Source: SAR116 cluster bacterium AG-321-K23
GTDB taxonomy: Bacteria > Pseudomonadota > Alphaproteobacteria > Puniceispirillales > Marisalimonadaceae
NCBI GenBank assembly: GCA_003284565.1
Contig: QBXO01000010.1
Location: 1 to 59,992 of the forward strand
Reading direction: 5' to 3'
DNA: 59,992 bases
Positions 44,753 through 59,830 of this stretch are shown here, in pieces. Every line of letters begins with the position of its first letter. Position 1 is the first letter of the stretch. The translations under genes and the position numbers were made by a program. Below the pieces are notes generated by a model. The model searched no databases. It had not been told where the DNA came from and was given only the letters and a program-made list of their open reading frames with translations.

Positions 44753-44760
44753 TTTATCCT

Positions 44761-45573
44761 CTAATTCTCTTTTAATTTTGGCATATTATATCGATCTTCA
44801 GGTTTAAGCCAGCCATTATAATTAGGCGTCCTTTTCTCTGCAAATGCTCTTCTACTTTCCATTCTATCTTCTGTATCACCATGAAGATGAAGTTTCTCAG
44901 CTAATTCAGCAATATTATTTGGTATTTTGGGCGCCATTAGTTTCATCATGTATAATGTATTAACCCTTGAAGCAGGAGGAAGAGTTAATAAATGTTCTGC
45001 CATTTTATGAGCTTCTTCCATTAACTCAATTTCATCTTCAACAAGGCGATTAACAAAGCCTACTTGATGCATTCTTTCAGCTGATATTCTGTAACCAAAT
45101 GCCATTTCAGTAGCAATTGGATGAGGAAGGTTACCATAATGTCCATGGTTATATCCTCCAAGCAACCATCTTTTAGCCTCTGACATTTCAAAAATGGCAC
45201 TTTTTACAGCCACTCTTAAATCAGTTCTTTCAACAAGCATAAAGCCGCCACCCATGGCAAATCCATTTACGGCTCCAATTACAGGTTTTTGAAGAATCCC
45301 TTCTTGAAAAGGATTAACTAAATCTTGTTCAACCATTTCTTTTGGAGATCCGGCAATTCCTCTTTCAACGGACTCTTTCATGTCCTCACCGGCGCAAAAT
45401 CCTCTTCCAGTTCCTGTCAGAATAGCAACTTCCAAATCATTATCTTCATGAAAACGAGTAAAAGCTCTTGCCATACCCTCTCTTATAACAGTACTGAGGG
45501 CATTCAGTCTTTCCGGACGATTTAGCCTTATAGTAAAAATCTGTCCATTAATCTCTGTTTCAACAAAACTCAT
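44761..45573 (-). CDS. Enoyl-CoA hydratase/isomerase family protein
   Basis: 270 residues of the crotonase fold. The oxyanion hole is in GRGFCAGEDMKES and VIGAVNGFAMGGGFML; the first catalytic Glu expected near 115 may be replaced, as the site reads LVERTDLRVA. ATG 45573 with AGGAG about 9 bp upstream is preferred over a TTG two codons earlier. Co-directional with and upstream of the CaiB gene. Reaction is not known. Confidence 0.86.
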   Translation of the reverse strand: MSFVETEINGQIFTIRLNRPERLNALSTVIREGMARAFTRFHEDNDLEVAILTGTGRGFCAGEDMKESVERGIAGSPKEMVEQDLVNPFQEGILQKPVIGAVNGFAMGGGFMLVERTDLRVAVKSAIFEMSEAKRWLLGGYNHGHYGNLPHPIATEMAFGYRISAERMHQVGFVNRLVEDEIELMEEAHKMAEHLLTLPPASRVNTLYMMKLMAPKIPNNIAELAEKLHLHGDTEDRMESRRAFAEKRTPNYNGWLKPEDRYNMPKLKEN

Positions 45574-45693
45574 TTTCAAAACTCCTAGTTGTGTTTATGC
45601 TATAATAATATTGTATATATTAAAAAGTCTTGCAAGTCATTGGGATAAAATCATAATTAATTAAATTAGATAAAGATTTGGGGGTCGAAAATT

Positions 45694-46803
45694 ATGAAAA
45701 CTAAAGCAGCAGTTGCAGTTGAAGCAGGTAAACCACTTGAAATTATGGAGGTTGATCTTGAAGGCCCTCGTCACGGAGAAGTGTTGGTGGAGATAAAAGC
45801 CACTGGTATCTGTCATACAGACGAATTTACACTTTCTGGGGCAGATCCAGAAGGTCTTTTTCCTTCTATATTAGGTCATGAAGGAGCTGGCATTGTTAGA
45901 GAAATTGGTAAAGGAGTGACAACTTTAAAAATAGGTGATCACGTAATCCCATTATATACTCCTGAATGTAGAGAATGTGAGTATTGCCTTCATCCTAAAA
46001 CTAATTTGTGTCAAGCAATCAGAACTACGCAAGGTAAAGGTTTAATGCCGGATGGTAGTAGTAGATTTTCAATTAATGGTAAAGAAATTTTACATTACAT
46101 GGGTACATCTACATTTTCAAATTTTACAGTTGTGCCAGAAATTGCGCTTGCTAAAGTAAATACAAAAGCTCCATTCGATAAAATTTGTTATATTGGTTGT
46201 GGTGTAACCACAGGTATTGGGGCTGTTATAAATACTGCTAAAGCGTCTGCTGGATGTAACGCAGTCGTTTTTGGTTTGGGTGGAATTGGCCTCAACGTTA
46301 TTCAAGGATTAAGAATGGTTGGAGCAAATATGATTGTTGGTGTTGACATGAATAACAAAAAAGAATCCTGGGGTAAAAAATTCGGGATGACACATTTCGT
46401 AAATCCTTCTGAAATAGAAGGTGATTTAGTAGATTATTTAGTAGATCTTACAGGCGGTGGCGCAGATTATTCTTTTGAATGTATCGGAAATGTTGATGTA
46501 ATGAGGCAAGCTCTCGAATGTGCCCACAAAGGCTGGGGAGAGAGCATCATTATTGGAGTAGCTGGGGCAGGTCAAGAAATTAAAACTAGACCTTTTCAAC
46601 TTGTTACAGGTAGAAGTTGGAAAGGTACAGCTTTCGGCGGTGCTAGAGGAAGAACAGATGTTCCTAAAATTGTAGAATGGTATCTTCAAGGAAAAATTGA
46701 TATTGATCCAATGATCACCCATAATTTAAAACTAGAAGATATTAATAAAGGTTTCGATTTAATGCATGCTGGTGAGTCAATAAGATCTGTTGTAGTCTTC
46801 TAA
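45694..46803 (+). CDS. frmA: S-(hydroxymethyl)glutathione dehydrogenase
   Basis: 369 residues of class III alcohol dehydrogenase, which oxidises the formaldehyde-glutathione adduct. The catalytic zinc ligands are in GICHTDEFTLSG and GHEGAG, the structural cluster in CRECEYCLHPKTNLC, and TTQGKGLMPDGSSRF is a class III mark. The Rossmann motif is GLGGIGLNV. It overlaps the fghA start by one base, giving the two-step glutathione formaldehyde detox pair. Divergent from the enoyl-CoA hydratase. Confidence 0.95.
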   Translation: MKTKAAVAVEAGKPLEIMEVDLEGPRHGEVLVEIKATGICHTDEFTLSGADPEGLFPSILGHEGAGIVREIGKGVTTLKIGDHVIPLYTPECRECEYCLHPKTNLCQAIRTTQGKGLMPDGSSRFSINGKEILHYMGTSTFSNFTVVPEIALAKVNTKAPFDKICYIGCGVTTGIGAVINTAKASAGCNAVVFGLGGIGLNVIQGLRMVGANMIVGVDMNNKKESWGKKFGMTHFVNPSEIEGDLVDYLVDLTGGGADYSFECIGNVDVMRQALECAHKGWGESIIIGVAGAGQEIKTRPFQLVTGRSWKGTAFGGARGRTDVPKIVEWYLQGKIDIDPMITHNLKLEDINKGFDLMHAGESIRSVVVF

Positions 46804-47627
46804 TGAAAATTATTTCCGAAGTATTTTCATTTGGAGGCAAGCAGTTAGTTTGTAATCATAAGTCAGTTGTAAATGACTGTGAAATGACTTTTGCCGTTTT
46901 TATTCCTCCTAAGATCAAAAAACCTCCAGTGTTATGGTACTTATCTGGTTTGACTTGTAGTCATCAAAATGTAATGGAAAAAGGGGAGTATAGAAAAAAA
47001 GCAGCAGAATTAGGAATGGTAATTATTTGTCCGGATACCAGTCCAAGAGGTGACAATGTACCGGATGAAAAAGAAAACTGGCAATTTGGTTCTGGAGCAG
47101 GGTTTTACATAGATGCAACTGAGCCTCCCTACAATAAAAACTACAATATGTACAGTTATATCGTTGAAGAACTTCCAAGTGTTGTTCAGAACAATTTTGA
47201 CTTTGACATGTCTAGACAAAGTATTTTTGGGCATTCAATGGGTGGGCATGGGGCTCTAGTAGTGGCTTTAAGAAACCCTAAAAAATTTAAAAGTTGTTCT
47301 GCATTTGCGCCAATTGTTGAACCAACAACAGCAAGTTGGTCTTGTGAGGCTTTTAAGAAATATATTGGTCTTAACCATAGTGATTGGCAAATTTATGATA
47401 GTGTAGCATTAGTCAAAAACGGTTATTATTTCCCTGAAATTCTTGTAGATCAGGGAGGTTCTGACAGTTTTTTAGAAGAAGGATTAAGACCTTGGCTTTT
47501 AGAAGATGCTTGTAAAAAATCAAAAATTAAATTGAAACTTAGGATACAAGATAATTATGATCATTCGTATTATTTTATTTCAACTTTTATGTCGGATCAT
47601 TTGATTTGGCATAGAGACAGAATTTGA
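46803..47627 (+). CDS. fghA: S-formylglutathione hydrolase
   Basis: 274 residues of the esterase D family that splits S-formylglutathione to formate and glutathione. The nucleophile is in FGHSMGGHGAL; the Asp is in ILVDQGGSDSFL and the His in DNYDHSYYFISTF, completing the triad. The CSHQNVMEKGEYRKKAAELGM segment is typical. Coupled to frmA by a one-base overlap. Converges on a thioesterase gene with a 3-bp gap. Confidence 0.95.
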   Translation: MKIISEVFSFGGKQLVCNHKSVVNDCEMTFAVFIPPKIKKPPVLWYLSGLTCSHQNVMEKGEYRKKAAELGMVIICPDTSPRGDNVPDEKENWQFGSGAGFYIDATEPPYNKNYNMYSYIVEELPSVVQNNFDFDMSRQSIFGHSMGGHGALVVALRNPKKFKSCSAFAPIVEPTTASWSCEAFKKYIGLNHSDWQIYDSVALVKNGYYFPEILVDQGGSDSFLEEGLRPWLLEDACKKSKIKLKLRIQDNYDHSYYFISTFMSDHLIWHRDRI

Positions 47628-47630
47628 ATT

Positions 47631-48047
47631 TTACTTTTGAGGGATTGAGTATGTTAGTGAAGCGTGAGCAACAGGCTTATCTATATCTTCAGAATATATT
47701 AAAACATCACCTACACTCAAAGTTTTGCCTAATTTTAAAATTCTAGCTTTACTTATTAAATTTTTTTCACTTGGTTTTCTTAAAAAATTTATTGAACAAT
47801 TAGTTGTAACAGTTAGGCTTTTAGGTCCGATAATACTTAAAGTAGCTAAGTAAAAAGTTACATCCGCCAATAAAAACATTGTTGGGCCGGAAACTGTTGC
47901 TCCTGGTCTCAAATGCTCTTCAGCAATATACATTAGCATTGATAAAGACTGATCACTAGCAGTTAATATTTTAAAGTTTTTGCTTACTTGAGGAAATTCT
48001 TTTTTCAAAAAGTCATCAAGACTTTTTTTTGACATTAATTGTTGCAT
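47631..48047 (-). CDS. Hotdog-fold thioesterase (PaaI family)
   Basis: 138 residues. The PaaI-like active-site block reads RPGATVSGPTMFLLADVTFYLA, replacing the common GG with SGP, followed by NCSINFLRKPSEKNLISKARILKLGKTL as usual. Probable acyl-CoA thioesterase. ATG 48047 lies four bp from the PcaB-like stop, so it is the second gene of that leftward unit. Confidence 0.8.
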   Translation of the reverse strand: MQQLMSKKSLDDFLKKEFPQVSKNFKILTASDQSLSMLMYIAEEHLRPGATVSGPTMFLLADVTFYLATLSIIGPKSLTVTTNCSINFLRKPSEKNLISKARILKLGKTLSVGDVLIYSEDIDKPVAHASLTYSIPQK

Positions 48048-48051
48048 TTTA

Positions 48052-49407
48052 TTAGAACTTCTTCCTGTTATCTAAAAGTCTTTTTGCCATTGCAGGAGCT
48101 GCTCCCAAATAATTAGAAGGGTCTATTATTTCTAATAAATCAGTCTTATTGAAAATATTAGAAATCTCTTTATTTTTTAATAATGTATCTATGAAAGAAA
48201 TATTTTTTTTGATCGATACTCTACAACAGTCATATACTAAATCATGTGCAATTTGTCTTCCCATTTTAGGTGCAAGCGCCATCATGACAGCTTCTGCGAC
48301 TATTAACCCATTGGTTTTATAAATGTTGTCTTTCATTTTTTCAGGTGAAACTTCTAAACCTTCTAAAAGATATTTAGCGGATCTGAAAGATGAAGAAGCG
48401 ACTAAAAAGGCGTTAGGTATAGCATGCCATTCAACATGCCATTGGCCTGTTGCTCTTTCATGATCAAGGACCATCGCATCAAGCATAGACGCGTGATTTT
48501 CCTTTAATAACTTTGAGCAAGCCAGCATTATTTCAGAAGAAATAGGGTTCCTTTTCTGAGGCATTGTTGATGATGATCCTCGTCCATGAAGAAATGGTTC
48601 TGCTACTTCTTGTGTTTCTGTTTGCATCATTAACATTACATCATATGCTATTTTACCTAAAGAGGCACCTACCATTGCAAGCCAACCAGTAACCTCGCAA
48701 AAATTATCCCTAATAGAATGCCAACTAACTTCTGGCACATTTAAATCTAACTCTTTTGCCAAGGCTGACTGTGTTTTAAGTCCATCATCTTCTCCAAGTG
48801 AAGCGAGCGTACCCGCGGCTCCAAAAAATGATACATTGAAAATACGTTTCTTCATTTCATCTAATCTTTTTTGGTGTCTATCAATACCAGATAACCAAGT
48901 AGATGCTTTATAACCAAAAGATGTGGGTAATGCGTGTTGTAAGTGTGTTCTTCCAGCCATGGGTGTATTAATGTAATTTTCAATGATATTTACTAATGCA
49001 TCTGATATTGATCTGAGGTCTTTTGATAATAATTTAAGACCTTTCCTTATTTGTAGGACATCAGCTGTATCCATAATATCTTGTGTTGTGGCGCCCCAGT
49101 GACAAAATTGCCCAAAGTCACTTTCAACTTTTTCACTTAGTTGCTCTACTAGTGGAAGAATTGGATATCCAACAATAGATGTTCTTTTTTCAAGTTTCTT
49201 CCAATCAATTATCTTTACTTTAGCTACTTGGGTAATTTTCTCCCCAGCCTCTTTTGGTATAATGTTTAGCTTTGACTGTGATCTTGCTAGGGCTGCCTCT
49301 ACATCTAAATATAACTGTGTAGTCACTTCATCAGAAAACAATAAATGCATTTCTTTTGTTCCAAACATTTCTCCCCAAATTTTTGAATTTGTAACTAAGG
49401 CAGGCAT
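48052..49407 (-). CDS. PcaB-like lyase (fumarase/aspartase superfamily)
   Basis: 451 residues of the argininosuccinate/adenylosuccinate lyase superfamily. The signature loop is GRGSSSTMPQKRNPIS; WGATTQDIMDTADVLQ and AGRTHLQHALPTSFGYK hold the active-site His residues. Sequence pattern and the S-S-x-MPQKRNP loop fit 3-carboxy-cis,cis-muconate cycloisomerase (PcaB), the step after PcaGH, better than PurB, but the pca genes are about 16 kb away and on the other strand. Adenylosuccinate lyase-like activity on another substrate remains possible. Confidence 0.78.
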   Translation of the reverse strand: MPALVTNSKIWGEMFGTKEMHLLFSDEVTTQLYLDVEAALARSQSKLNIIPKEAGEKITQVAKVKIIDWKKLEKRTSIVGYPILPLVEQLSEKVESDFGQFCHWGATTQDIMDTADVLQIRKGLKLLSKDLRSISDALVNIIENYINTPMAGRTHLQHALPTSFGYKASTWLSGIDRHQKRLDEMKKRIFNVSFFGAAGTLASLGEDDGLKTQSALAKELDLNVPEVSWHSIRDNFCEVTGWLAMVGASLGKIAYDVMLMMQTETQEVAEPFLHGRGSSSTMPQKRNPISSEIMLACSKLLKENHASMLDAMVLDHERATGQWHVEWHAIPNAFLVASSSFRSAKYLLEGLEVSPEKMKDNIYKTNGLIVAEAVMMALAPKMGRQIAHDLVYDCCRVSIKKNISFIDTLLKNKEISNIFNKTDLLEIIDPSNYLGAAPAMAKRLLDNRKKF

Positions 49408-49425
49408 TTAGTATTTCCTATTAAA

Positions 49426-50217
49426 TTAATTTTGGTACCAAGATGCAGTTCTTTTCTCAAGAAAACTGTTAAGGCCTTCTTTTGCTTCATCAGACATCCT
49501 TTTTTGAGAATGTTCAAAAACAAGTTCATCAAACTTTTTGTCTGATAACATTAGACCACTTTCAATTAAAGTTCTTCTTTTTGTTGCTTCTAGGGCATCT
49601 GGAGCACACATCAATAAGTCCTCAATAACGGGCTTGACGGCACTTTCAAGCTCACCAGCTTTACAAACCTGGTGAATTAAACCCATCTGCTTGGCTTGAC
49701 TAGCATTAAAACGCTCACAAGATAGAGCATATCTTCTAACATTTCTTACTCCAATACTTGCGTTTAAATGAGGAATTATTATTCCTGCCATTACACCCCA
49801 TCTAGCCTCAGAAATAGAAAAAACAGCATCTTCACTAGCTATCACGATATCAGCGGCTGCGGCAATTCCAGTCCCACCTCCAAAGCATCCACCATGGATC
49901 AATGCTATTGTTGGCTTGGGGAATTCAGTAAGACCTTTAATCGCTGAAGCGGTTTTCTTTGAAACCTCTATATTCTCTTTTTGACTTAGATTACCAATCT
50001 CTTTAAGCCATTTTAAGTCAGCACCTGCTTGAAAATGTTTTCCATTACCTTTTATAAGTACCACTCTTACAGAATTATTTTTATATAAAGCTTCAAAACT
50101 TTTAATTAACTCAATAATCATGTCTGAGTTATATGCGTTATTTCTTTCTGGACGATTTAAAATAACCTCTGCAATTCCTCTTTCATCAACCTTTGTTATA
50201 ACAATATTGCTGCTCAT
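49426..50217 (-). CDS. Enoyl-CoA hydratase/isomerase family protein
   Basis: 263 residues of the crotonase fold. Oxyanion-hole residues are in GNGKHFQAGADLKWLKE and ALIHGGCFGGGTGIAAA; the Glu in FSISEARWGVMAG is the second catalytic position typical of hydratases. It starts with the NRPERNNAYNSDMI motif. Co-directional with the PcaB-like gene (18-bp gap). The substrate cannot be assigned. Confidence 0.88.
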   Translation of the reverse strand: MSSNIVITKVDERGIAEVILNRPERNNAYNSDMIIELIKSFEALYKNNSVRVVLIKGNGKHFQAGADLKWLKEIGNLSQKENIEVSKKTASAIKGLTEFPKPTIALIHGGCFGGGTGIAAAADIVIASEDAVFSISEARWGVMAGIIIPHLNASIGVRNVRRYALSCERFNASQAKQMGLIHQVCKAGELESAVKPVIEDLLMCAPDALEATKRRTLIESGLMLSDKKFDELVFEHSQKRMSDEAKEGLNSFLEKRTASWYQN

Positions 50218-50252: not shown

Positions 50253-50597
50253 TTAATTTTCAAAATCTAGTGCGGTAATAGTTTCTTCTTTAATAGAGAA
50301 CGCTCTTAGTCTAACAAAAACGTTAAACTTTTTTTGTAAAATTTCACTAATTTGTTTTAAACAATCTTTTCTTCTTTTTATGTTTCTAGTAGTTTTTTCT
50401 CTAAACTTCAATTCACCAAAAATTTTATAGTTTGAACTTAATATCTTGCTCCTTACCCAAATAATTTGACAGTTATTTTTTTCAGCCTCTAATTCTTCTT
50501 CTATTATTTTTATCATATTTTTTTCAATTGCTTTAACTACAGAATTTTTGAGAGTATTTTCTATGATTTCGTCTATATGTAGAATTAAAGAAGGCAT
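50253..50597 (-). CDS. Possible tautomerase-superfamily protein
   Basis: 114 residues beginning MPSLILHIDE. A Pro directly after the initiator Met and a strand then a long amphipathic helix (IIENTLKNSVVKAIEKNMIKII) is the layout of the 4-oxalocrotonate/CHMI/MSAD tautomerase superfamily, where Pro1 is the catalytic base. The size suits the longer (CHMI-type) members. This is a pattern impression, not a firm match. It is upstream of the enoyl-CoA hydratase and may be in that unit, and divergent from the CoA-pathway operon. Confidence 0.45.
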   Translation of the reverse strand: MPSLILHIDEIIENTLKNSVVKAIEKNMIKIIEEELEAEKNNCQIIWVRSKILSSNYKIFGELKFREKTTRNIKRRKDCLKQISEILQKKFNVFVRLRAFSIKEETITALDFEN

Positions 50598-50698: not shown

Positions 50699-51556
50699 AT
50701 GGATAATGAAGTGCTTGATATTAATCATTTAAACAAATGGGTTGGTAATATAGAAACTGTGACTGATTATCTTACGCCTATTGTTGAACAAAGGTATAGA
50801 GCTACATTAAATATAGATCCAGGTGATCCTGAAATTGGAGAAGTTGCTACATCAGGTCTGCATTGGATGTTGGGTTGGAATCTGAAAAAAAATGACGAGC
50901 TTGGAGTTGATTCTCATCCTGCCAGAGGTGAATTTTTGCCTCCTGTCCCACTTCCAAGAAGAATGTGGGCAGGAAGCCAAATTAAAGTCAATACCCCTCT
51001 TAGAGTAGGTGATAAAGTTATAAAAAAATCTAAAGTGGCTGATATAAAATTAAAAGAAGGAAGGACAGGACAACTATGTTTTGTTACAGCTGAGTATGAA
51101 TACTTAGTTAATGAAGACGTAAGACTACATGAGCTTCATAATATTGTATACCGTGATGTTACCAAAGCTACAGGTGGTTCTGGTGTATCTGATGTAATAC
51201 CAGATGATGCAGATTTTACTGAAACAATTTTTATGCACCCAACAATATTGTTTCGATATTCAGCAATTGGTTTTGTTGGTCATAGAATACACTATGACTT
51301 CCCATATACAAAAAATGAAGAGAACTATCCTGATTTGATAGTACATGGTCCCTTACAAGCCACTTTTTTGCTTAGAGCAGCTGAAAAACTCAAAGGAAAG
51401 GCAGTTACTTCCTTTAGTCATAAGGTTATGGCTCCAGTTTTTGCTAATAGTGATTACATTATTGGTGCTAAGGAAAACCCAAATGGCAGTGTCAGTTGTT
51501 GGGGTGCTGTAAAAGGTTCAGGCATGACCATGCAAGCTGAAGCACATTTCGAATAA
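50699..51556 (+). CDS. FAS1-like/MaoC dehydratase-type acyl-CoA hydratase
   Basis: 285 residues with two hotdog domains, the layout of mesaconyl-C4-CoA hydratase and itaconyl-CoA hydratase (RipB-like) proteins. The C-terminal domain carries the active-site helix block HPTILFRYSAIGFVGHRIHYD and PDLIVHGPLQATFL, where Tyr and His take part in hydration. The N-terminal domain is the FAS1-like dehydratase half with VPLPRRMWAGSQI. AGAGG upstream of the ATG. First gene of a six-gene CoA-pathway block (next gap 21 bp). Confidence 0.85.
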   Translation: MDNEVLDINHLNKWVGNIETVTDYLTPIVEQRYRATLNIDPGDPEIGEVATSGLHWMLGWNLKKNDELGVDSHPARGEFLPPVPLPRRMWAGSQIKVNTPLRVGDKVIKKSKVADIKLKEGRTGQLCFVTAEYEYLVNEDVRLHELHNIVYRDVTKATGGSGVSDVIPDDADFTETIFMHPTILFRYSAIGFVGHRIHYDFPYTKNEENYPDLIVHGPLQATFLLRAAEKLKGKAVTSFSHKVMAPVFANSDYIIGAKENPNGSVSCWGAVKGSGMTMQAEAHFE

Positions 51557-51577
51557 TTTACAAAGAAAGGATATATT

Positions 51578-52897
51578 GTGTCTATTACAAAGTTATTTGG
51601 TAGTTATGGATTTAATACTCAATTAAATAGTTTTAACGATGAGATGAAGTTTTTTGCAAAAATGTCTATACTAGATTGGTGTGGTGTAGCATACGCAGCA
51701 AAAAAGGAACCAGTTTCTAAAATAGTATCTGAAATGGTTAAAGAGGAAAATGGAGTTAATCAAGCAAGATTAATAACAACTGGTCATAGAGTTTCTTCAA
51801 GAGGGGCTGCCCTAGCTAATGGAGCCACTGGACATGCACTAGATTATGACGACACACACTTTCTTTTTGTTGGCCATCCTACAGCCAGTGCTTTGCCAAC
51901 TGCACTAGCACTAGGCGAAGAATTGGGATCCTCATTAGAGGAATTATTACTTGCCTATATGACAGGCGTAGAGGTTTCTACTAGAATAGGACATATTTTA
52001 GGTTACTCGCATTATAATGCAGGCTTCCATCAAACTGCTACTACCGGATCATTTGGCTCAACAATCGTGGCATCTAAATTGTTAAATTTGAGTGAAGATG
52101 AAACAATAAATGCACTTGGTTTGGTCTCTACAAGAGCATCAGGAATTAAATCTCAATTTGGTACAATGGGTAAACCATATCATGCTGGAATGGCTGCATC
52201 AAACGGTATTGAGGCTGCTAAATTATCAAAGCTAGGATTTGTATCAAGAGAAGATGGTATGGAATGTGATCAAGGTTTTTTTCTAACTCATGGTTGGGAT
52301 AAAAAATTACCTAATAGAGCAGTAGAAAACTTAGGAGCAGATTTTTTGTTTCCAGAAATCAAGTATAAATTTCATGCATGTTGTCATGGACTACATTCTT
52401 TTTTAGAAGCGCTCGAAGAACTAAAGCAAGAAAATAATTTTAATCCTGATACAATAGAAGAAATAGCAATTGAAACTAATCCTTCATGGCTTAAAGTCTG
52501 TAACATTGAAAAACCTAAAACTGGTTTAGAAGCAAAGTTTTCTTATAAATTAACGGCAGCAATGTCAATTTATGGAAAAGATACCGCTGACCTAGATACT
52601 TATTGTGATGAAGTTTGTTTTGATGACAACATGAATGGTATTAGAGACAGGGTAAAGGTTATACCTAACGATAAATTAACAAATACCCAGTCTTTAATTT
52701 CAATAAAAGATGGTAGTAAAGATATTAAAAATAAGCATGATTTATCTGACAAAATTGATCAAAAAATTTTAGAAACTAAAATTTTAAACAAATCGGTTTC
52801 TTTATTATCAAAAATTAAATCAAATGAAATTTCTAGTATGTTAAATTCAGCGTCTAAAACTAAAGTTGATGCATTAGTAGATTGTTTGGTTAGCTGA
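51578..52897 (+). CDS. MmgE/PrpD-family protein, second copy
   Basis: 439 residues of the MmgE/PrpD superfamily (2-methylcitrate dehydratase; cis-aconitate decarboxylase). Visible signs are ANGATGHALDYDDTHFLFVGHPTASALP and GFHQTATTGSFGSTIVASKLL. It is distinct from the copy at 36.4 kb, with a shorter N-terminus and different C-terminus. Start is GTG with AAGGA 8 bp upstream; its stop overlaps the CaiB start (TGATG). Sits between a hydratase and a CoA-transferase, so it may act on the free acid before CoA activation. Activity unproven. Confidence 0.87.
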   Translation: MSITKLFGSYGFNTQLNSFNDEMKFFAKMSILDWCGVAYAAKKEPVSKIVSEMVKEENGVNQARLITTGHRVSSRGAALANGATGHALDYDDTHFLFVGHPTASALPTALALGEELGSSLEELLLAYMTGVEVSTRIGHILGYSHYNAGFHQTATTGSFGSTIVASKLLNLSEDETINALGLVSTRASGIKSQFGTMGKPYHAGMAASNGIEAAKLSKLGFVSREDGMECDQGFFLTHGWDKKLPNRAVENLGADFLFPEIKYKFHACCHGLHSFLEALEELKQENNFNPDTIEEIAIETNPSWLKVCNIEKPKTGLEAKFSYKLTAAMSIYGKDTADLDTYCDEVCFDDNMNGIRDRVKVIPNDKLTNTQSLISIKDGSKDIKNKHDLSDKIDQKILETKILNKSVSLLSKIKSNEISSMLNSASKTKVDALVDCLVS

Positions 52898-54051
52898 TGA
52901 GCACACAAAACTCTGGACAAGATTTAGAGGGTTTATTAGTTGTAACAGTTGAGCAAGCTGTGGCAGCGCCTTACACATCATGTAGACTGGCAGACGCAGG
53001 TGCCAGGGTTATAAAAGTTGAGAGACCTGAAGGTGATTTTGCTAGAAACTACGATAGTAATGCACTTGGAAATAGTGCTTATTTTGTTTGGTTAAATAGA
53101 GGTAAAGAGTCAATCTCTTTAGATCTAAAAAATAGTGAAGATTTTAAAATTTTTGAGAAAATTATTTCAAAATCTGATATTTTGATTCAAAATTTAGCAC
53201 CAGGCGCGTTTGATCGTCTTGGTCTGGATTTACTCGAATTAAGAAAAAAATATCCATCTTTAATTACATGTTCTATTTCTGGGTTTGGAGACGAAGGTCC
53301 CTATAAAAATCAAAAAGCTTATGATATGTTAATCCAAGCTGAAACTGGCGTTATTGATATAACTGGTCTCCCAGATAAAGATGGAGTGGATGGAAGAGCA
53401 AAGGTTGGGCCATCAGTATGTGATATATCTGCAGGGATGACAGCTTATCAAGCAATTCTTCAAGCAATTATTAAAAGAAGTGTTAGTGGAAAAGGCAGGC
53501 ATATATCAGTGTCTATGTTTAACTCGCTCGCAGATTGGATGAATCCTTTTTATCTTGGTTATGTTTATAATCAAAAGATTCCTAAAAGAAACGGCATGAC
53601 ACATCCAATAATCGTTCCATATGGTGCATATAATTGTAAAGATAATTTGACTATTTTAATTGCTATACAAAATGATCGTGAATGGGGGAAGTTGTGTAAT
53701 ATTGTATTAGATGACGAAACTATGGTGAATGATACTCGTTTTAAAACTAACTCAGATCGAGTTGCTAATCGAGAATTAACAGAAAAAATTATACAAGATA
53801 AATTTATTACTTTTGAACGTGAAAAATTAATTGAGAAACTTGAAGAAGCGAGTGTTGCTTACGGCAGAATTTCTGATATGGAACAATTAAAGAATCATCC
53901 TCAAAACAATTTTTTAGAGATTGAAACAAAAAATGGGAAGGTTAAAATTTTAGGTCCAGGCGCAATCCATGACAATTTTATACCCGAAGTGAATAAAATG
54001 CCAGAATTAGACGAGCATGGCAAAAAAATTAGAGCTGAATTTAGTTCTTAA
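52897..54051 (+). CDS. CaiB/BaiF class III CoA-transferase
   Basis: 384 residues. Start region LEGLLVVTVEQAVAAPYTSCRLADAGARVIKVERPEGDFAR and the LNRGKESISLDLKN blocks are typical; the catalytic Asp is in AKVGPSVCDISAGM. It would activate an acid by transferring CoA from succinyl-CoA or another donor. Third gene of the block; its ATG overlaps the PrpD stop by one base. The CitE-like gene follows by 18 bp. A second CoA-transferase of the same family ends the block. Confidence 0.92.
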   Translation: MSTQNSGQDLEGLLVVTVEQAVAAPYTSCRLADAGARVIKVERPEGDFARNYDSNALGNSAYFVWLNRGKESISLDLKNSEDFKIFEKIISKSDILIQNLAPGAFDRLGLDLLELRKKYPSLITCSISGFGDEGPYKNQKAYDMLIQAETGVIDITGLPDKDGVDGRAKVGPSVCDISAGMTAYQAILQAIIKRSVSGKGRHISVSMFNSLADWMNPFYLGYVYNQKIPKRNGMTHPIIVPYGAYNCKDNLTILIAIQNDREWGKLCNIVLDDETMVNDTRFKTNSDRVANRELTEKIIQDKFITFEREKLIEKLEEASVAYGRISDMEQLKNHPQNNFLEIETKNGKVKILGPGAIHDNFIPEVNKMPELDEHGKKIRAEFSS

Positions 54052-54069
54052 AAAAAATAGGAGATAAAT

Positions 54070-54882
54070 TTGAGAAGTATTTTATTTTTACCAACGGATA
54101 AAATTGAAAGGTTATCCAAGGCTATAGGATCTGGAGCGGATAAAGTTATTTTTGATCTAGAAGATGGTTTGGCGCATGAAAACAAAGCTATTGGCAGATC
54201 TAACTTTGTTGAACTAGCAAATAGAAATTATGACGGTCAAGCAGATAAGCTTTTATTGCGTATTAATGCTTTGGATACCGAAGAATATAAAGAAGATATA
54301 AAAATGTTAAGGTCTCTACCTTCTCTTCCTTACTCTATTGCTATTCCTAAAATTGAGTCTGCTGATGAATGTAGAACTTTTTTAAAAGATCTTGGAACTG
54401 ATATATTAATTTTACCTCAAATTGAAACGCCAAGGGGAATTGCAACTATTGAAAGTTGGGATTGTTCAAAATTAGAATTTTCTGGAATTGGATTTGGATC
54501 AGCAGATTATTGCGCATCGACTGGTGGTGATATGGGCAAAGCTAGTTTAGCATATGGAAGAGGTAAAATAATTAACGCTGCCGCATTATACAACACACTT
54601 GCTCTTGATGGTGTCTGGCTAGATTTTAGAGATCCTGATGGATGTAGAGAAGAGACATTGTACGTAAAAACAATGGGTTTTAAAGGACGTTTTGCTATAC
54701 ACCCAGATCAGATTAAACCAATTCATGATGCTTACAGACCCACTGCAGAGGAACTTAAGTGGGCAAAAGGCGTGTTAGAGGAGGCAAAAACAGCAGGTTC
54801 AGGTGCTTTTAAATATCAAGGTAAAATGGTTGATGCGCCTGTTTTAGCTGTTGCGAGACTGATTATATCCAGGGAGGATTAA
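54070..54882 (+). CDS. HpcH/HpaI-CitE family acyl-CoA lyase
   Basis: 270 residues of the CitE/citramalyl-CoA/malyl-CoA lyase family. It starts MRSILFLPTDKIERLSKAI, followed by the metal-binding VIFDLEDGLAHENK, then IPKIESADEC and LPQIETPRGI (the Glu ligand) and FGSADYCASTGG. These enzymes split a beta-hydroxyacyl-CoA to acetyl-CoA and an oxo-acid. TTG start with AGGAG about 6-7 bp upstream. Within a hydratase/CoA-transferase set, citramalyl-CoA or a methylmalyl-CoA are the leading candidate substrates. Confidence 0.9.
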   Translation: MRSILFLPTDKIERLSKAIGSGADKVIFDLEDGLAHENKAIGRSNFVELANRNYDGQADKLLLRINALDTEEYKEDIKMLRSLPSLPYSIAIPKIESADECRTFLKDLGTDILILPQIETPRGIATIESWDCSKLEFSGIGFGSADYCASTGGDMGKASLAYGRGKIINAAALYNTLALDGVWLDFRDPDGCREETLYVKTMGFKGRFAIHPDQIKPIHDAYRPTAEELKWAKGVLEEAKTAGSGAFKYQGKMVDAPVLAVARLIISRED

Positions 54883-55422
54883 ATGGATGAAAATTCTTAT
54901 GGAATTAAAAAGATAGGACCCCAAAGGTATAGGGAAGATCCTGGTAGATATTTTGAGGACTTTCAAATTGGAGACGTTTATGAGCATTGGCCAGGTAGAA
55001 CAGTAAGCGAAGCTGATAATATATGGTTTACAAATTTAACTATGAATACTCATCCAATTCATTTTGATGCAAATTATGCCTCAAAATCTGAGTTTGGAAA
55101 ATATTTGGTTAATTCAGCTTTTACATTAGCGCTCGTTACTGGGATGTGTGTTAGTGGGACAAGCCAAAAAGCAATAGCCAATTTGGGATGGGAAGAAATA
55201 AAAATACCTGCACCAGTATTTGTTGGTGATACGCTTTACTCAGAAACTGAAGTTTTGGGTAAAAGAGAATCCAAATCAAGACCTACACAAGGTATTATAA
55301 AGGTAAGACACATTGGGAAAAATCAAGATAAAATTGTTGTGATGGATATGGTAAGATCTTTCCTAGTGGCTAAACGTGGACATAGTATTGTTGACGAAAT
55401 TATTAAAAACACTGCGAAATAG
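54883..55422 (+). CDS. MaoC-family hydratase/dehydratase
   Basis: 179 residues, single hotdog domain. The start YFEDFQIGDVYEHWPGRTVSEADNIWFTNLTMNTHPIHFDANYA carries the MaoC motif with the T-x-N-x2-P-x-H-x-D catalytic pair of Asn/His and Asp. It starts directly at the base after the CitE-like stop, so they are strongly coupled. With the FAS1-like hydratase it makes two hydratases in the block, perhaps for two different intermediates. Confidence 0.9.
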   Translation: MDENSYGIKKIGPQRYREDPGRYFEDFQIGDVYEHWPGRTVSEADNIWFTNLTMNTHPIHFDANYASKSEFGKYLVNSAFTLALVTGMCVSGTSQKAIANLGWEEIKIPAPVFVGDTLYSETEVLGKRESKSRPTQGIIKVRHIGKNQDKIVVMDMVRSFLVAKRGHSIVDEIIKNTAK

Positions 55423-55433
55423 AGAACAACAAT

Positions 55434-56639
55434 ATGAACTTACCCCTTTCAGGCGTTAGAATAGTAGCTTTTGAGCAATATGGAGCTGGACCATTTGGAA
55501 CTCAATATTTAGCTGATTTAGGTGCAGAGGTAATCAAAGTTGAACCGGCAGGCACAAGTGGTGATTACTTAAGAGCAATCGGCCCTTATTTTATTGACGG
55601 AGAAGATAGAAATTCTGCTTCAAGTATTTTTTTCCAAGCTCTCAATAGAAATAAAAAAAGTATTACATTAGATGTCTTATCAGATGATGGAAAAAAAATT
55701 CTTCAAAGATTAGTTGAAAACTCTGATGCAGTTTCTAACAATTTAAGAGGAGATGTACCTGAAAAACTTGGAATAACTTATGATCAGTTAAAACAATATA
55801 ATAAATCTATTGTTTCAGCACATTGCTCTGCTTATGGAAGAGAAGGGCCCAGAAAAAATTGGCCAGGATATGATTATCTCATGCAAGCAGAAGCAGGTTA
55901 TTTTTCTCTTACTGGCGAACCTGATGGTCCCCCATCAAGATTTGGATTGTCTGTTGTAGATTATATGTCTGGTCTTACAATGTCATTTGGTCTTGTAAGT
56001 GCGATATTATCTGCTAGATCAACAGGTGTTGGAAGAGATGTTGACGTTAATTTATTTGATACGGCTATGTTTAATCAAAGTTATATGGCTGCATGGACAC
56101 TTAACACTGATTTTGAAAGCGAGAGATTAGAACGATCAGCACATCCAATTTTAGTACCATGCCAATTATATAAAACCAAAGATGGTTGGATATTTTTGAT
56201 GTGTAATAAAGAAAGTTTTTGGCCCATTTTATGTAAAAAAATAGGCAGAGATGATCTTATTAACGAATCAAAATTTGTTGATTTTTCGTCAAGACAGAAA
56301 AATAGAGATGAAATTACCAAAATTCTTGATGCGGAGTTGATGAAAAAAAACACTGCTGAGTGGTTAGAAGTATTTGGGGGAATTGTACCTGCTGCTCCTA
56401 TATTAAATCTAAAAGAGTCTTTAGAAAATCCATTTTTAAATAATAGACGAAACATTCAACACCTTAAGACAAAGAGAGGTGTAAATATAAGTTTGCTGAA
56501 AACACCAATTCACCTATCAAATACTGATTATGAAGATAAAACAGCTCCTGAATTAGGTGAAGACACAAATATCGTATTAGAAGAAATTGGTTTTACTGAA
56601 GACCAAATCATAAGTTTTAAAAATAAAGGCGTTATCTAA
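55434..56639 (+). CDS. CaiB/BaiF class III CoA-transferase
   Basis: 401 residues, related to but distinct from the CaiB at 52.9 kb. Start region LSGVRIVAFEQYGAGPFGTQYLADLGAEVIKVEPAGT and the ALNRNKKSITLDVLSDDGKK strand are typical; the catalytic Asp is in RFGLSVVDYMSGL. Last gene of the six-gene CoA block; the stop lies inside a perfect 24-bp palindrome. The TRAP genes follow after 110 bp, in the same direction. Confidence 0.92.
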   Translation: MNLPLSGVRIVAFEQYGAGPFGTQYLADLGAEVIKVEPAGTSGDYLRAIGPYFIDGEDRNSASSIFFQALNRNKKSITLDVLSDDGKKILQRLVENSDAVSNNLRGDVPEKLGITYDQLKQYNKSIVSAHCSAYGREGPRKNWPGYDYLMQAEAGYFSLTGEPDGPPSRFGLSVVDYMSGLTMSFGLVSAILSARSTGVGRDVDVNLFDTAMFNQSYMAAWTLNTDFESERLERSAHPILVPCQLYKTKDGWIFLMCNKESFWPILCKKIGRDDLINESKFVDFSSRQKNRDEITKILDAELMKKNTAEWLEVFGGIVPAAPILNLKESLENPFLNNRRNIQHLKTKRGVNISLLKTPIHLSNTDYEDKTAPELGEDTNIVLEEIGFTEDQIISFKNKGVI

Positions 56640-56654
56640 TTTAAATTAGATAAC
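56631..56654. promoter_or_regulatory. Perfect 24-bp palindrome over the CaiB stop codon
   Basis: GTTATCTAATTT and its exact reverse complement lie back to back, with the stop codon TAA inside the left half. In RNA it folds as a 10-bp stem with a TTAA loop, without a T-tract right after. It could be a weak terminator, an RNA processing site, or an operator for the following dctP promoter. The sequence is AT-rich, but a 24-bp perfect palindrome is well beyond chance in 60 kb. Confidence 0.65.
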
Positions 56655-56749
56655 ATATTAATTAATTTATTCTTTTATCTTGTAATTAAGGGTTTACCTC
56701 ATACCTATTACGTTATAGTTTGTGATTCTAAATATTTGGAGGAAATTTA

Positions 56750-57916
56750 ATGAAATTAAACAAATTATCTATGTTAGGTGTAGCAAGTGCTGTTGCCCTA
56801 ACGTTTGCAGCTGGTACAAACTTAGCTATCGCTGACGGACATGTTAAGCCGATTAAAATGCGTTGGGCGTCTGATCATTCAGGTCCACCCCATCCTGCTG
56901 CTATTGCAGAAATGTTTTTTGCCGAGCAGGTTGAAAAGAAAATTCCTGGTAGTAAGGTCCAAATTTATTGGGCTAAGTCACTTTATAACGTTCCAAAAGG
57001 TACACAGGCTCTGACAAAGGGTAACCTTGAGATGATGACTGGTCAGTTTGGAAAAACTTCAAGTGTTGAGCCATATGCTAATACCATTGTTGGTGCTGGA
57101 AAATTGACATCTCCTGGTGCTATTAATGGACTTGATGGCACAAAAACTTTTGCTCAATTAAAGAAAGTTTTTAATGACAAGCATGGGATTACTATTTTTG
57201 GTTCAGGTCACTTGAGTATGTATATGGGTGCTGGTGCTGTTAAAAGTAGAATGTTAGTGCCTGCTGACTTTGCTGGTAAAAAAGTTAGAAGTATGGGACC
57301 TGCTGAGAATGCATTGTTAGGTGCTTTAGGTGCAAACCCAACAACAATGGCTTTTGGTGATGTTCCACCAGCTCTTCAAACTGGAGTTATTGATGGACTA
57401 CTAACAAGTTTAGGTGGATTTAATGCTACTAAAGAACAAGCTCCATATTTCACAGTTGCCGGTATAAATGGTATCGTTGGTGACTATTACTGGATTGGTG
57501 CATCAAATAAATGGTGGGCTACTCTTGATAAAAATCAAAAAGCAGCTTTAACAGATATTATCATGAATGATTTTATCCCTTACCAAAAGGCTATTAACTT
57601 TTGTAATGATAAAAGATTAGTTGATAAGTTTAAAACAACTGATAAAGGCGCTCCTGGAATTTATGTGATGAGTCCTGGAGAAGCTGGAGTTCTTCAAGCA
57701 AAAGAAGGTGGTGCTACAAACAACTGGATTAAGTCTAAAGTTGACGATATGGGAGACAAAATGGTTGACCAGTTTACTTCTGAAGCAAAAGCTTTAGTTG
57801 CAGCTAATCCAATGGGATCAAGTGCACTAGAAAAGACTGATTGTACTGCATTTGCTGCTGACTTTGCTAAGTTTGCTAAAGGAACAGCTTTATACAAGAA
57901 AAAGTCAAGAAAATAA
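56750..57916 (+). CDS. dctP: TRAP transporter substrate-binding protein, DctP family
   Basis: 388 residues. Signal peptide KLSMLGVASAVALTFAAGTNLAIA is cut before DGHVKPIKMRWASDHSG. The acid-binding Arg is in FAGKKVRSMGPAENALL and the family's second block is TTMAFGDVPPALQTGVIDGLL. It is somewhat longer than usual DctP (about 330). GGAGG lies 7-8 bp upstream of the ATG; a possible promoter GTTTAC (56692) with TATAGT (56714), 16-bp spacer, sits ahead. It binds an organic acid in the periplasm; a terminator follows directly. Confidence 0.92.
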   Translation: MKLNKLSMLGVASAVALTFAAGTNLAIADGHVKPIKMRWASDHSGPPHPAAIAEMFFAEQVEKKIPGSKVQIYWAKSLYNVPKGTQALTKGNLEMMTGQFGKTSSVEPYANTIVGAGKLTSPGAINGLDGTKTFAQLKKVFNDKHGITIFGSGHLSMYMGAGAVKSRMLVPADFAGKKVRSMGPAENALLGALGANPTTMAFGDVPPALQTGVIDGLLTSLGGFNATKEQAPYFTVAGINGIVGDYYWIGASNKWWATLDKNQKAALTDIIMNDFIPYQKAINFCNDKRLVDKFKTTDKGAPGIYVMSPGEAGVLQAKEGGATNNWIKSKVDDMGDKMVDQFTSEAKALVAANPMGSSALEKTDCTAFAADFAKFAKGTALYKKKSRK

Positions 57917-57924
57917 AATTTTTT

Positions 57925-57954
57925 AAAAAGGCCTGGCCTGTGTCAGGCCTTTTT
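57925..57954 (+). terminator. Rho-independent terminator between dctP and dctQ
   Basis: A perfect 11-bp stem, AAAAAGGCCTG with CAGGCCTTTTT, 8-nt loop, runs directly into a T-rich tail. It begins 9 bp after the dctP stop and ends 17 bp before the dctQ ATG. Partial read-through would give much more binding protein than permease, a known solution in transporter operons. Confidence 0.93.
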
Positions 57955-57970
57955 ATTTTAGTTGATTATC

Positions 57971-58522
57971 ATGGATAATTTTTACAAAATCTCAAATAAA
58001 ATTCAGTCTTTTATAACTGCTACATTAGGTAGATGTTCTGCTTTACTAATGATTGCCGTTACACTTTTTGCTTTAGCCGAAATTATTAGAAGATATATTT
58101 TTGGTGTTGTTTTTGAATGGGGTCAAGATGCTGTTATTTACATGATGGTTTCATCAGTTGCCTTCTATATTTGTGTAACACAAATCAATAGGAATCACCT
58201 TGTGATGAGTGCTGTTTTACAACTTTTAAACGTTAAAGGTTTTCACAGAACAGTAGGTTTTTGTAAAATTTTTGTATCTTTATTTGTTTCAGTATTCACT
58301 GGTTCTTTAACTTACACAGCTTATTCAACAGTTGAATATTCAATACAGATTGGTGAAAGAACTGAGAGTTTATTTTTCTTTATGTGGCCATTTTATTTTA
58401 TACTGGCTTTAGGCATGGGACTAATGTCTTTAGTTGCCTTTCTCCAATTTATCGAAGATATCCATAGTTACATAAAGGGTGAACATTTTACAGCAGAAGT
58501 TGAAGCTGCTACAGATGTATAA
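57971..58522 (+). CDS. dctQ: TRAP transporter small permease
   Basis: 183 residues with four membrane helices. Family signs are LMIAVTLFALAEIIRRYIFGVVFEWGQDAVIYMM in the first half and the second pair of helices around LFFFMWPFYFILALGMGLM. ATG 57971 fits the family start; the TTG at 57962 is only three codons earlier. No ribosome site is visible near either, because the terminator occupies the space. Partner of dctM, 24 bp downstream. Confidence 0.9.
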   Translation: MDNFYKISNKIQSFITATLGRCSALLMIAVTLFALAEIIRRYIFGVVFEWGQDAVIYMMVSSVAFYICVTQINRNHLVMSAVLQLLNVKGFHRTVGFCKIFVSLFVSVFTGSLTYTAYSTVEYSIQIGERTESLFFFMWPFYFILALGMGLMSLVAFLQFIEDIHSYIKGEHFTAEVEAATDV

Positions 58523-58546
58523 TATCAATAATACGGGAAACTCAAT

Positions 58547-59830
58547 ATGTGGGCTTTAGGTGGATCTTTATTCAGTCTATTATTTGCTGGAGCCCCAATA
58601 GGTATAGCTTTAGCAGGAGCCACAGGTCTTCTTGTACTGTTTGATGATTTTTTAACATATAGTACCTTATTTGAAGCTTTCTTTAGTTTTCTTACTAAAT
58701 ATACATTAGTAGCTATTCCATTTTTTATTTTTGCTGGTTTTTTAATGGAGAAAACAGGTTTAGTTGCAAGTCTTTTTAAATTTGCTGATTCAATAGTTGG
58801 ATGGGTTCCGGGTGGTTTTGCTTATGCAACGTTACTTGCAGCTGTATTATTTGGAGCAATCTCTGGTTCATCCACAGCAATGGCTGCTGCAATGAGCGTT
58901 ATAGCTTACCCTGAGCTAATTAAAAGAGGCTATCCAAAATGGATGGCTGCAGGAGTTATTGCTTCAGCAGGTGGTATAGCACTTCTTATACCGCCAAGTA
59001 TAACTTTGATTCTTTTTGGTGTAATAACTGAAATGTCTATAGTTGATTTATTTTTTGCAGGAATTATTCCTGGATTGATGTTGGCTATGAGTGATGCAGT
59101 TATAATTGTTAGTGTTTCACTTTTTATTAAGTTACCTCGAGGAAAATTTGATTTATGTGAAGTTTGGAGGTGTTTCAAAGAAGCTCTTCCTGCTTTGTTA
59201 ATGCCTGTAATTATTTTAGGTGGTTTATATGGAGGTTTATTTACTCCTACCGAAGCAGGTGCTGCTGCTGCCAGTTATGCTCTTTTTTATGGATTAATTT
59301 TTAAAAGAAAAACTTTTGCGAAAGAATTAATGCCAACAACATTAAGAACTATGAACCTTACTGCAGTTGTTTTTTTCCTATTGGGATGTGTTGGCATCTT
59401 CCAATTTTATCTTGCGAATATGGGCTGGCCTCAAATGATTGCTGAATGGGCCGGTGAGTTGGGTTTGAGTCAAACTGGATTTTTATTTGCACTAATGGGT
59501 TCTTTATTATTCTTATCCATGTTCTTAACAGGTGTTGCTATTTTAGTTTTAACTGTACCTATATATTTTCCTGTAGCATTAGCTCTTGGTGTAGATCCAA
59601 TTCACTTAGGGATTTTAACTGCATTATGCATAGAAATAGGAAGTGTTATTCCCCCTGTTGGTCTAAACTTGTTTGCTGTTAGTGGAGTAACAGGCTTACC
59701 AGTAACAACCGTTATTAAGGGATCTTTCCCATTTTGTATCTCTGATACAGTTGTATTAATTATAGTTCTGTTATTCCCTGCTTTAGCGTTGACAATGCCA
59801 GAACTTTTAGTTGAATCTCATTTTAAATAA
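58547..59830 (+). CDS. dctM: TRAP transporter large permease
   Basis: 427 residues with about twelve membrane helices. The DctM markers are GAPIGIALAGATGLLVLF near the start, the FGAISGSSTAMAAAMSVIAYPELIKRGY motif and PPSITLILFGVITEMSI, then GLYGGLFTPTEAGAAAASYALFYG. It completes the TRAP system, sodium-driven uptake of an organic acid. The stop overlaps the partial amidase gene by 13 bp (tail to tail). Confidence 0.95.
   Translation: MWALGGSLFSLLFAGAPIGIALAGATGLLVLFDDFLTYSTLFEAFFSFLTKYTLVAIPFFIFAGFLMEKTGLVASLFKFADSIVGWVPGGFAYATLLAAVLFGAISGSSTAMAAAMSVIAYPELIKRGYPKWMAAGVIASAGGIALLIPPSITLILFGVITEMSIVDLFFAGIIPGLMLAMSDAVIIVSVSLFIKLPRGKFDLCEVWRCFKEALPALLMPVIILGGLYGGLFTPTEAGAAAASYALFYGLIFKRKTFAKELMPTTLRTMNLTAVVFFLLGCVGIFQFYLANMGWPQMIAEWAGELGLSQTGFLFALMGSLLFLSMFLTGVAILVLTVPIYFPVALALGVDPIHLGILTALCIEIGSVIPPVGLNLFAVSGVTGLPVTTVIKGSFPFCISDTVVLIIVLLFPALALTMPELLVESHFK

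Follow-up and report, generated by a model that had tools for sequence, protein, structure and literature searches.

A conserved SAR116 locus joins two gene modules for probable CoA-dependent dicarboxylate breakdown and carries an itaconyl-CoA hydratase homologue without the hydratase asparagine

The itaconate cluster of pseudomonads, which also degrades methylsuccinate (PMC12290011), comprises in Pseudomonas aeruginosa the genes PA0878-0886 for itaconyl-coenzyme A (CoA) hydratase (Ich), Mcd, a lactonase, methylsuccinate isomerase (Msi), itaconate CoA-transferase (Ict), (S)-citramalyl-CoA lyase (Ccl) and the tripartite ATP-independent periplasmic (TRAP) transporter IctPQM (PMC12290011, PMC9875883, PMC12599236). 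According to PMC12290011, the MmgE/PrpD protein of this cluster is an (S)-(R)-methylsuccinate isomerase, its acyl-CoA dehydrogenase yields mesaconyl-C4-CoA, Ich acts both as isomerase and as hydratase, and the P. aeruginosa-type and Yersinia-type itaconate clusters are convergent. Deletion genetics of the P. aeruginosa type are given in PMC9875883, where that cluster was also transferred into P. putida KT2440; the linked TRAP transporter is required for growth on itaconate and its binding protein binds this acid (PMC12599236). Here we describe a nine-gene block (genes g1 to g9, Table 1) in a 59,992-nt stretch of DNA, in the following called the window, of SAR116 cluster bacterium AG-321-K23 (GCA_003284565.1, contig QBXO01000010.1, designated C10 among the contigs of this 1.8-Mb genome, whose completeness is 69%). 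We assume, with a probability of roughly 60%, that the block serves the TRAP-dependent import and CoA-ester breakdown of a small dicarboxylate with a substituent at C2, most likely a branched C5 acid, by the logic known for itaconate and methylsuccinate, that the locus arose by fusion of two modules, and that its Ich homologue g1 takes no part in hydration.

Like PA0878-0886, the block unites an Ict-clade transferase (g3), an Ich homologue (g1), a CitE-type lyase (g4), an MmgE/PrpD protein (g2) and TRAP genes (g7-g9) in one locus. It differs in that the Ich homologue lacks the motif Asn, in that its PrpD, CitE, dehydrogenase and DctP proteins are only 23-33% identical to their counterparts (the identity reference is the cluster of P. 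aeruginosa PA7, L079), and in that a RipB-like hydratase (g5), a further CaiB protein (g6) and a second PrpD protein (PrpD2) are present in addition. With the Yersinia-type RipABC set the block shares a RipB-like protein next to a CitE-type lyase; however, g5 and g4 score below the NCBIfam cut-offs for RipB (230 bits, cut-off 340) and RipC (169 bits, cut-off 375), and the transferase is of the CaiB type, not of the acetyl-CoA hydrolase/transferase type. Paraburkholderia RipB reaches 356 bits on the RipB model, while the lyase beside it also falls short of the RipC cut-off with 290 bits; an acetyl-CoA hydrolase/transferase gene follows this NCBI-named RipB. The CoA-transferase of the Rip set is not known to be of the CaiB type. 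An earlier note on this DNA had taken a three-gene rip set with a CaiB-type transferase as its reference and had regarded the PrpD member as going beyond the known set. That set belongs to the Yersinia-type variant rather than to the P. aeruginosa type, and neither a PrpD protein nor a TRAP system is new in such a cluster, because that of P. aeruginosa has IctPQM as well as a methylsuccinate isomerase of the MmgE/PrpD family (PMC12290011, PMC9875883, PMC12599236). The second CoA-transferase and the second hydratase, which the note had also singled out, are accounted for by a recurrent module of Alphaproteobacteria (see below). Its central proposal of a CoA-linked, itaconate-type dicarboxylate breakdown beside a TRAP importer is supported by the grouping of g3 with itaconate CoA-transferases. 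A further comparison is offered by Cupriavidus necator, where the genes next to a second Ich homologue encode a CoA-transferase and a member of the adenylosuccinate-lyase family (PMC12290011); the block likewise has an Ich paralogue beside a CaiB gene, with an adenylosuccinate-lyase family gene nearby (48052-49407), yet it also contains a CitE-type lyase and TRAP genes.

The two hydratase homologues of the block differ in a residue presumed to be catalytic. In other Ich proteins the motif reads [TS]xN-x-H-x-IHYD, whereas block-type g1 reads GFVGHRIHYD in 49/49 sequences (39 distinct proteins). In a dereplicated comparison, for which the Pseudomonas loci were thinned to 10, the position of the Asn is occupied by Val in 39/39 block proteins and by Asn in 45/45 other Ich; Asn is also present in 114/114 other Ich of the fetched loci (many of them from Pseudomonas) and, by alignment, in 29/29 Ich from a search of the class, the three sets overlapping with one another. 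Only three changes in columns conserved to at least 90% are fixed in g1, namely T191G (Thr in 44/45 of the others), N193V (Asn in 45/45) and R242K (Arg in 41/45); a smaller set of 26 other Ich had 49 columns conserved to at least 90%. Asn226 and His231, with the same spacing, are the catalytic pair proposed for mesaconyl-CoA hydratase in PMC10164722. When profiles are compared with each other, the Ich motif TFNGHRIHYD lines up with TMNTHPIHFD from the g5 family (probability 86%, E 5e-6), and the Asn is kept in g5 and in a second Ich of the same genome. Since the hydratase Asn is lost, g1, a duplicated Ich, probably no longer hydrates. That two of the three fixed changes fall within the motif suggests a change of substrate or of the way in which labour is divided. 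The protein is 36% identical to P. aeruginosa Ich and matches itaconyl-CoA hydratase (8khg) over nearly its full length. Decay of the gene was considered and rejected: dN/dS amounts to 0.039-0.054 in three comparisons, rough values as dS exceeds 1 in all three, and by this measure g1 is under purifying selection.

Gene product g5 is 57% identical to an NCBI-named RipB and reaches 230 bits on the RipB/Ich model, far more than the 67 bits on that for 2-methylfumaryl-CoA hydratase. Its best solved relatives are 8hgn, the mesaconyl-CoA hydratase of PMC10164722, and the related 4e3e. Five positions of g5 are fixed in the block, including L51N directly before the motif (18/18 in the block, 34/37 in the others); of such fixed positions g2 has eight and g3 two, whereas g6 has none. 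Some changes specific to a lineage are to be expected in every single clade.

The phylogenetic assignment of the transferases and the lyase, proposed in the earlier note, gave a clear place for g3 and left g6 and g4 apart from the known enzymes. In a tree of 51 CaiB proteins g3 lies inside the Ict clade together with P. aeruginosa Ict (100/99), to which it is 41% identical (54.5% to an Ict-type CaiB of Shinella), and g6 groups with the CaiB protein of another locus, L163 (100/98), apart from Ict and in a clade for which we found no characterised member. Among 31 CitE proteins compared in a tree, the L163 lyase comes closest to g4 (84/80, a weak placement), and g4 stands apart from RipC and outside the clade (96/94) of P. 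aeruginosa Ccl and most lyases of P. aeruginosa-type clusters. Its identity to Ccl is 33%, and its sequence does not indicate orthology to this enzyme; the best solved relatives are the CitE-type lyases 3qll of Yersinia and 8khl of Pseudomonas (133 and 126 bits), whereas malyl-CoA lyases reach at most 97 bits. A second CitE-type lyase of the genome (L056 8928-9788, contig C2) scores 263 bits on the RipC model compared with 168-169 bits for g4, both below 375.

Protein g2 keeps, at aligned positions, the His/Tyr and Lys residues of the two-base set of iminodisuccinate epimerase and methylsuccinate isomerase. Its acidic residue is Asp as in the epimerase, not Glu, and a motif that reads HVVEQDD in P. 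aeruginosa Msi reads HALDYDD in g2 at an overall identity of 33%; the cut-off of the hidden Markov model for Msi given in PMC12290011 is 550. PrpD proteins from other clusters, in which CaiB, CitE, Ich or dehydrogenase genes are variously present, are 40-45% identical to g2. Among the fixed positions is R143Y near the catalytic Tyr (41/41 versus 10/10, with only 10 other PrpD1 sequences available). The PrpD protein encoded beside Mcd and Ich in Cupriavidus metallidurans was rejected as an orthologue at only 29% identity, its label 'Cmet_Msi' resting on its neighbours only.

These data bear on the explanation that the block is simply a diverged P. aeruginosa-type itaconate/methylsuccinate cluster, in which g3 would act as Ict, g1 as Ich, g4 as Ccl, g2 as Msi and g7-g9 as IctPQM, with g5 and g6 as redundant helpers. 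The clade of g3 and the almost complete alignment of g1 with itaconyl-CoA hydratase speak for this explanation, and a relative from the SAR116 order (G069) has a compact CaiB-CitE-Ich-PrpD cluster with the canonical Ich motif; against it stand the loss of the motif Asn in g1, the low identity and altered motif of g2, the position of g4 outside P. aeruginosa Ccl, the 22.5% identity of DctP to IctP and a linked dehydrogenase that is 32% identical to Mcd but 55-61% to dehydrogenases of a different module. Judged by sequence, the locus agrees with the P. aeruginosa type in the Ict clade of g3 and departs from it in the Ich motif, in Ccl orthology and in Mcd. We therefore regard a merely diverged known cluster as unlikely.

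The block is instead the junction of two modules: module A (g1-g2-g3) is of the P. aeruginosa type, and module B comprises g4-g5-g6 together with PrpD2 and the linked dehydrogenase, although g4 only probably came along with g5-g6. Module B, which we defined from genomes alone, consists of a g6-type CaiB protein (CaiB6), an acyl-CoA dehydrogenase, a RipB-like MaoC protein and often PrpD2 or a second CaiB protein, sometimes also CitE. Neighbours were counted within 8-kb flanks in a sample of the alphaproteobacterial class, at 55 of 57 g6-type and all 34 g3-type places other than our own; the identity thresholds were set by us, and the counts are lower bounds because several contigs are short. 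At the 55 g6-type loci we found the module-B dehydrogenase 41 times, RipB-like MaoC 31 times, a second CaiB 23 times, PrpD2 15 times, TRAP genes 9 times and CitE 8 times, Ict once (39% identity) and Ich, above the thresholds and within the flanks, never. The 34 g3-type loci had Mcd in 17, Ich in 13, TRAP genes in 5, CitE in 4 and PrpD1 in 2 cases, and within the same limits neither RipB-like MaoC (0/34) nor the module-B dehydrogenase (0/34). Below the thresholds, four weak Ict-like matches occurred at g6-type loci, and one weak dehydrogenase and one weak CaiB6-like match at g3-type loci. As the modules mostly lie apart elsewhere, the locus of the SAR116 family reads as a junction. It shares g5-g6, PrpD2, the dehydrogenase and probably g4 with module B and differs from it by the presence of Ich.

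The remaining members of module B lie beyond the window. The block is truncated by the window end, and the amidase gene that is broken there, PrpD2 and the dehydrogenase continue on contig C21 of the same genome: the end of this contig carries the rest of the amidase gene, then PrpD2 and the acyl-CoA dehydrogenase gene, 90%, 97% and 96% identical to those of G014. RipB-like MaoC, CaiB6 and a dehydrogenase of the module-B type occur together at the locus in the family, the dehydrogenase being located on C21 in the genome of the window. The family dehydrogenase is 55-61% identical to module-B dehydrogenases, with the upper value for Pseudosulfitobacter. An assignment of PrpD2 and this enzyme as Msi and Mcd was rejected; the pairing would fit, but the dehydrogenase is only 32% identical to Mcd compared with 61% to the Pseudosulfitobacter protein, and PrpD2 is 32% identical to Msi. 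A survey of the neighbours of 31 module-B loci yielded, among the smaller clusters tested, GntR regulators, a short-chain dehydrogenase/reductase (SDR), an acetyl-CoA hydrolase/transferase and unrelated genes; the larger unassigned clusters look like antisense shadow open reading frames.

Several observations weigh against our interpretation. Beside TRAP genes, the locus L163 shows the gene order CitE-MaoC-CaiB known from g4-g5-g6, but this nearest relative of g4-g6 has neither the module-B dehydrogenase nor PrpD2 on its contig. CitE lies near only 8/55 g6-type loci, so that a lyase is no constant component of module B; in the CitE tree the lyases of other module-B loci occupy scattered positions, some within the Ccl clade, and g4 itself is without a characterised close relative and weakly placed beside the L163 lyase. 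A locus on the Pseudosulfitobacter plasmid pSMR1-4 (L070) pairs an Ict-clade CaiB with RipB-like MaoC, PrpD, the module-B dehydrogenase, CitE and TRAP genes, with no Ich annotated, and the mixing of modules as such is thus not unique to the SAR116 family. Gene g3 is absent from the block in 5/5 examined loci of two other genera (labelled g2 and g4; genus labels, not gene names). The binding protein g7, finally, gives no support for itaconate uptake because of its low identity to IctP; it has the central-motif Arg, and the alignment is too distant to judge other ligand residues. Neither the L070 exception nor the mixed origin of module-B lyases bears on the change in g1 or on the logic of the pathway. 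The L070 cluster is flanked by TRAP genes on one side and by acyl-CoA mutase/MeaB genes on the other, a possible hint at its pathway.

The separate occurrence of the modules in other Alphaproteobacteria could also mean that they handle two substrates and are neighbours only through shared import or regulation, as two transferases, two PrpD proteins and two hydratase homologues in one locus would allow. There is, on the other hand, a single lyase, and with g1 probably unable to hydrate, module A would here be left without a hydratase of its own; moreover, in the five loci without g3 the genes g1-g2 remain joined to g4-g5-g6. Two independent substrates thus appear improbable to us, and we prefer a joint pathway built from both modules.

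In such a joint pathway the TRAP system g7-g9 would import the dicarboxylate, PrpD1 (g2) and PrpD2 would epimerise the free acid, one of the CaiB transferases (g3 or g6) would form the CoA ester, and the linked acyl-CoA dehydrogenase would oxidise the saturated form if the acid is saturated. The RipB-like g5 would then add water, and the CitE-like g4 would cleave the product into acetyl-CoA and a 2-oxo acid. The locus itself would have originated by the joining of the P. aeruginosa-type module (g1-g2-g3) to the second module (g4-g5-g6 with PrpD2 and the dehydrogenase). We infer every reaction from family membership, and the order of the reactions and the substrate are likewise proposals; the logic of the pathway is taken by analogy from PMC12290011 and PMC9875883. 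A more specific version, which we put forward as a tentative idea, is that after duplication the His of the Asn-less g1 still acts as a base, for example in methylene isomerisation or in the epimerisation of a CoA ester, and that g5 hydrates, so that a bifunctional isomerase/hydratase would be split over two proteins; together with the fixed changes adjoining the motifs of g5 and g2 this would point to an undescribed route for some branched dicarboxylate different from both itaconate and methylsuccinate. The lost Asn in g1 lends some support to the view of the earlier note that the substrate or the route may be new.

The block is conserved in the family of the window, a low-GC SAR116 (Puniceispirillales) family (f1) represented by 58 genomes, many of them incomplete drafts, among 151 genomes searched in all; the GC content of 2-kb stretches of the window is 26-37%. 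Block-type g1 was detected in 46/151 genomes, all of the family (46/58), and g5 (E <= 1e-30) in 51/151, of which 46 belong to the family (46/58). In 44 of the 46 family genomes with g1 the two genes lie within 6 kb of each other, and in 38/44 of these the family acyl-CoA dehydrogenase is encoded on the same contig at a distance of up to 15 kb. The recurrence of g1 and g5 and their proximity in 44 genomes show that the block is no product of chance. In seven long family loci (L035-L041) a convergent gene comes after dctM, and then PrpD2 and a gene for 387-391 amino acids; Pfam identifies the convergent gene of L035 as an amidase and the 387-391-aa gene as an acyl-CoA dehydrogenase. In G016 the second half of the block is inverted on the same contig. 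Trees (100/100 in each case) identify g1 and the second Ich as family duplicates, and likewise g3 and two CaiB genes adjoining the second Ich; in genera g2, g3 and g4 an Ict-type CaiB gene lies beside the second Ich (three loci: L043, L044, L045). The second, canonical Ich of the genome of the window (L034 8180-9028, contig C1) is 51% identical to g1, and no CaiB gene is located beside the second Ich in the two examined loci of the genus of the window (L034, L046). In one genus of the family a gene for 515 amino acids lies directly upstream of g1 (L041 13138-14685 and L042 11340-12887), a thiamine-diphosphate enzyme according to Pfam in L041.

The nine open reading frames of the block (50699-59830) lie where the earlier note had placed them and are all on the + strand, and the domain assignments of the note are borne out by Pfam (FAS1_DH_region, MmgE_PrpD N and C, CoA_transf_3 twice, HpcH_HpaI, MaoC_dehydratas, DctP, DctQ and DctM, each above the gathering score). 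The reported spacing of the first six genes, 0-21 bp, is likewise correct (g1-g2 21, g3-g4 18, g4-g5 0 and g5-g6 11 bp), with a 1-bp overlap of g2 and g3; further on, 110 bp separate g6 from dctP, 45 bp dctP from dctQ and 24 bp dctQ from dctM. The large permease g9 is 39% identical to IctM of P. aeruginosa. Divergent from g1, a 114-aa open reading frame at 50253-50597 (- strand) without Pfam or NCBIfam match recurs in the majority of the family loci read, with identities of about 39-98%. Just upstream lies another CoA-linked group (43541-50217), much of it conserved beside the block in family loci, with CaiB (43541-44752), enoyl-CoA hydratase (44761-45579) and a zinc alcohol dehydrogenase plus esterase (45694-47627), as well as a 4HBT thioesterase, a member of the adenylosuccinate-lyase family and a further enoyl-CoA hydratase. 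The dehydrogenase and esterase, supported by Pfam only, presumably resemble a formaldehyde-detoxification pair.

Table 1. Genes of the block and the adjoining gene end in the window.
Feature	Position	Strand	Basis
g1, Ich-type (FAS1_DH) hydratase homologue of 285 aa with V193 in place of the motif Asn, and G191	50699..51556	+	Pfam PF13452; PDB 8khg itaconyl-CoA hydratase E 3.6e-50; motif alignment
g2, MmgE/PrpD protein, PrpD1 clade, His/Tyr/Lys set kept	51578..52897	+	Pfam; PDB 2hp3 alignment; residues
g3, CaiB family III CoA-transferase, itaconate CoA-transferase (Ict) clade	52897..54051	+	tree
g4, CitE/HpcH-type CoA-ester lyase, divergent	54070..54882	+	Pfam; NCBIfam; tree
g5, RipB-like MaoC hydratase, Asn-x4-His intact (TMNTHPIHFD)	54883..55422	+	NCBIfam RipB; identity; motif
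g6, CaiB family III CoA-transferase, second-module (CaiB6) clade	55434..56639	+	tree; neighbourhood counts
g7, TRAP solute-binding protein DctP	56750..57916	+	Pfam PF03480
g8, TRAP small permease DctQ	57962..58522	+	Pfam PF04290
g9, TRAP large permease DctM	58547..59830	+	Pfam PF06808
amidase gene, C-terminal end (~160 bp), broken by contig end	59830..59992	-	identity; family loci

Our literature search turned up no paper on itaconate in SAR116, and PMC12262181 mentions neither itaconate nor mesaconate. One search of a single open-access library likewise yielded no description of module B, which does not prove that the module is unpublished. The locus marks this alphaproteobacterial module of CaiB6, dehydrogenase, RipB-like hydratase and PrpD2, and its g1 represents a natural experiment on the hydratase Asn. 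Knowledge of itaconate, mesaconate and methylsuccinate metabolism comes mostly from soil bacteria and pathogens; a conserved locus of an apparently marine SAR116 family that joins two mostly separate CoA-ester modules and has a retooled hydratase would suggest that branched dicarboxylates are a standing source of carbon in seawater.

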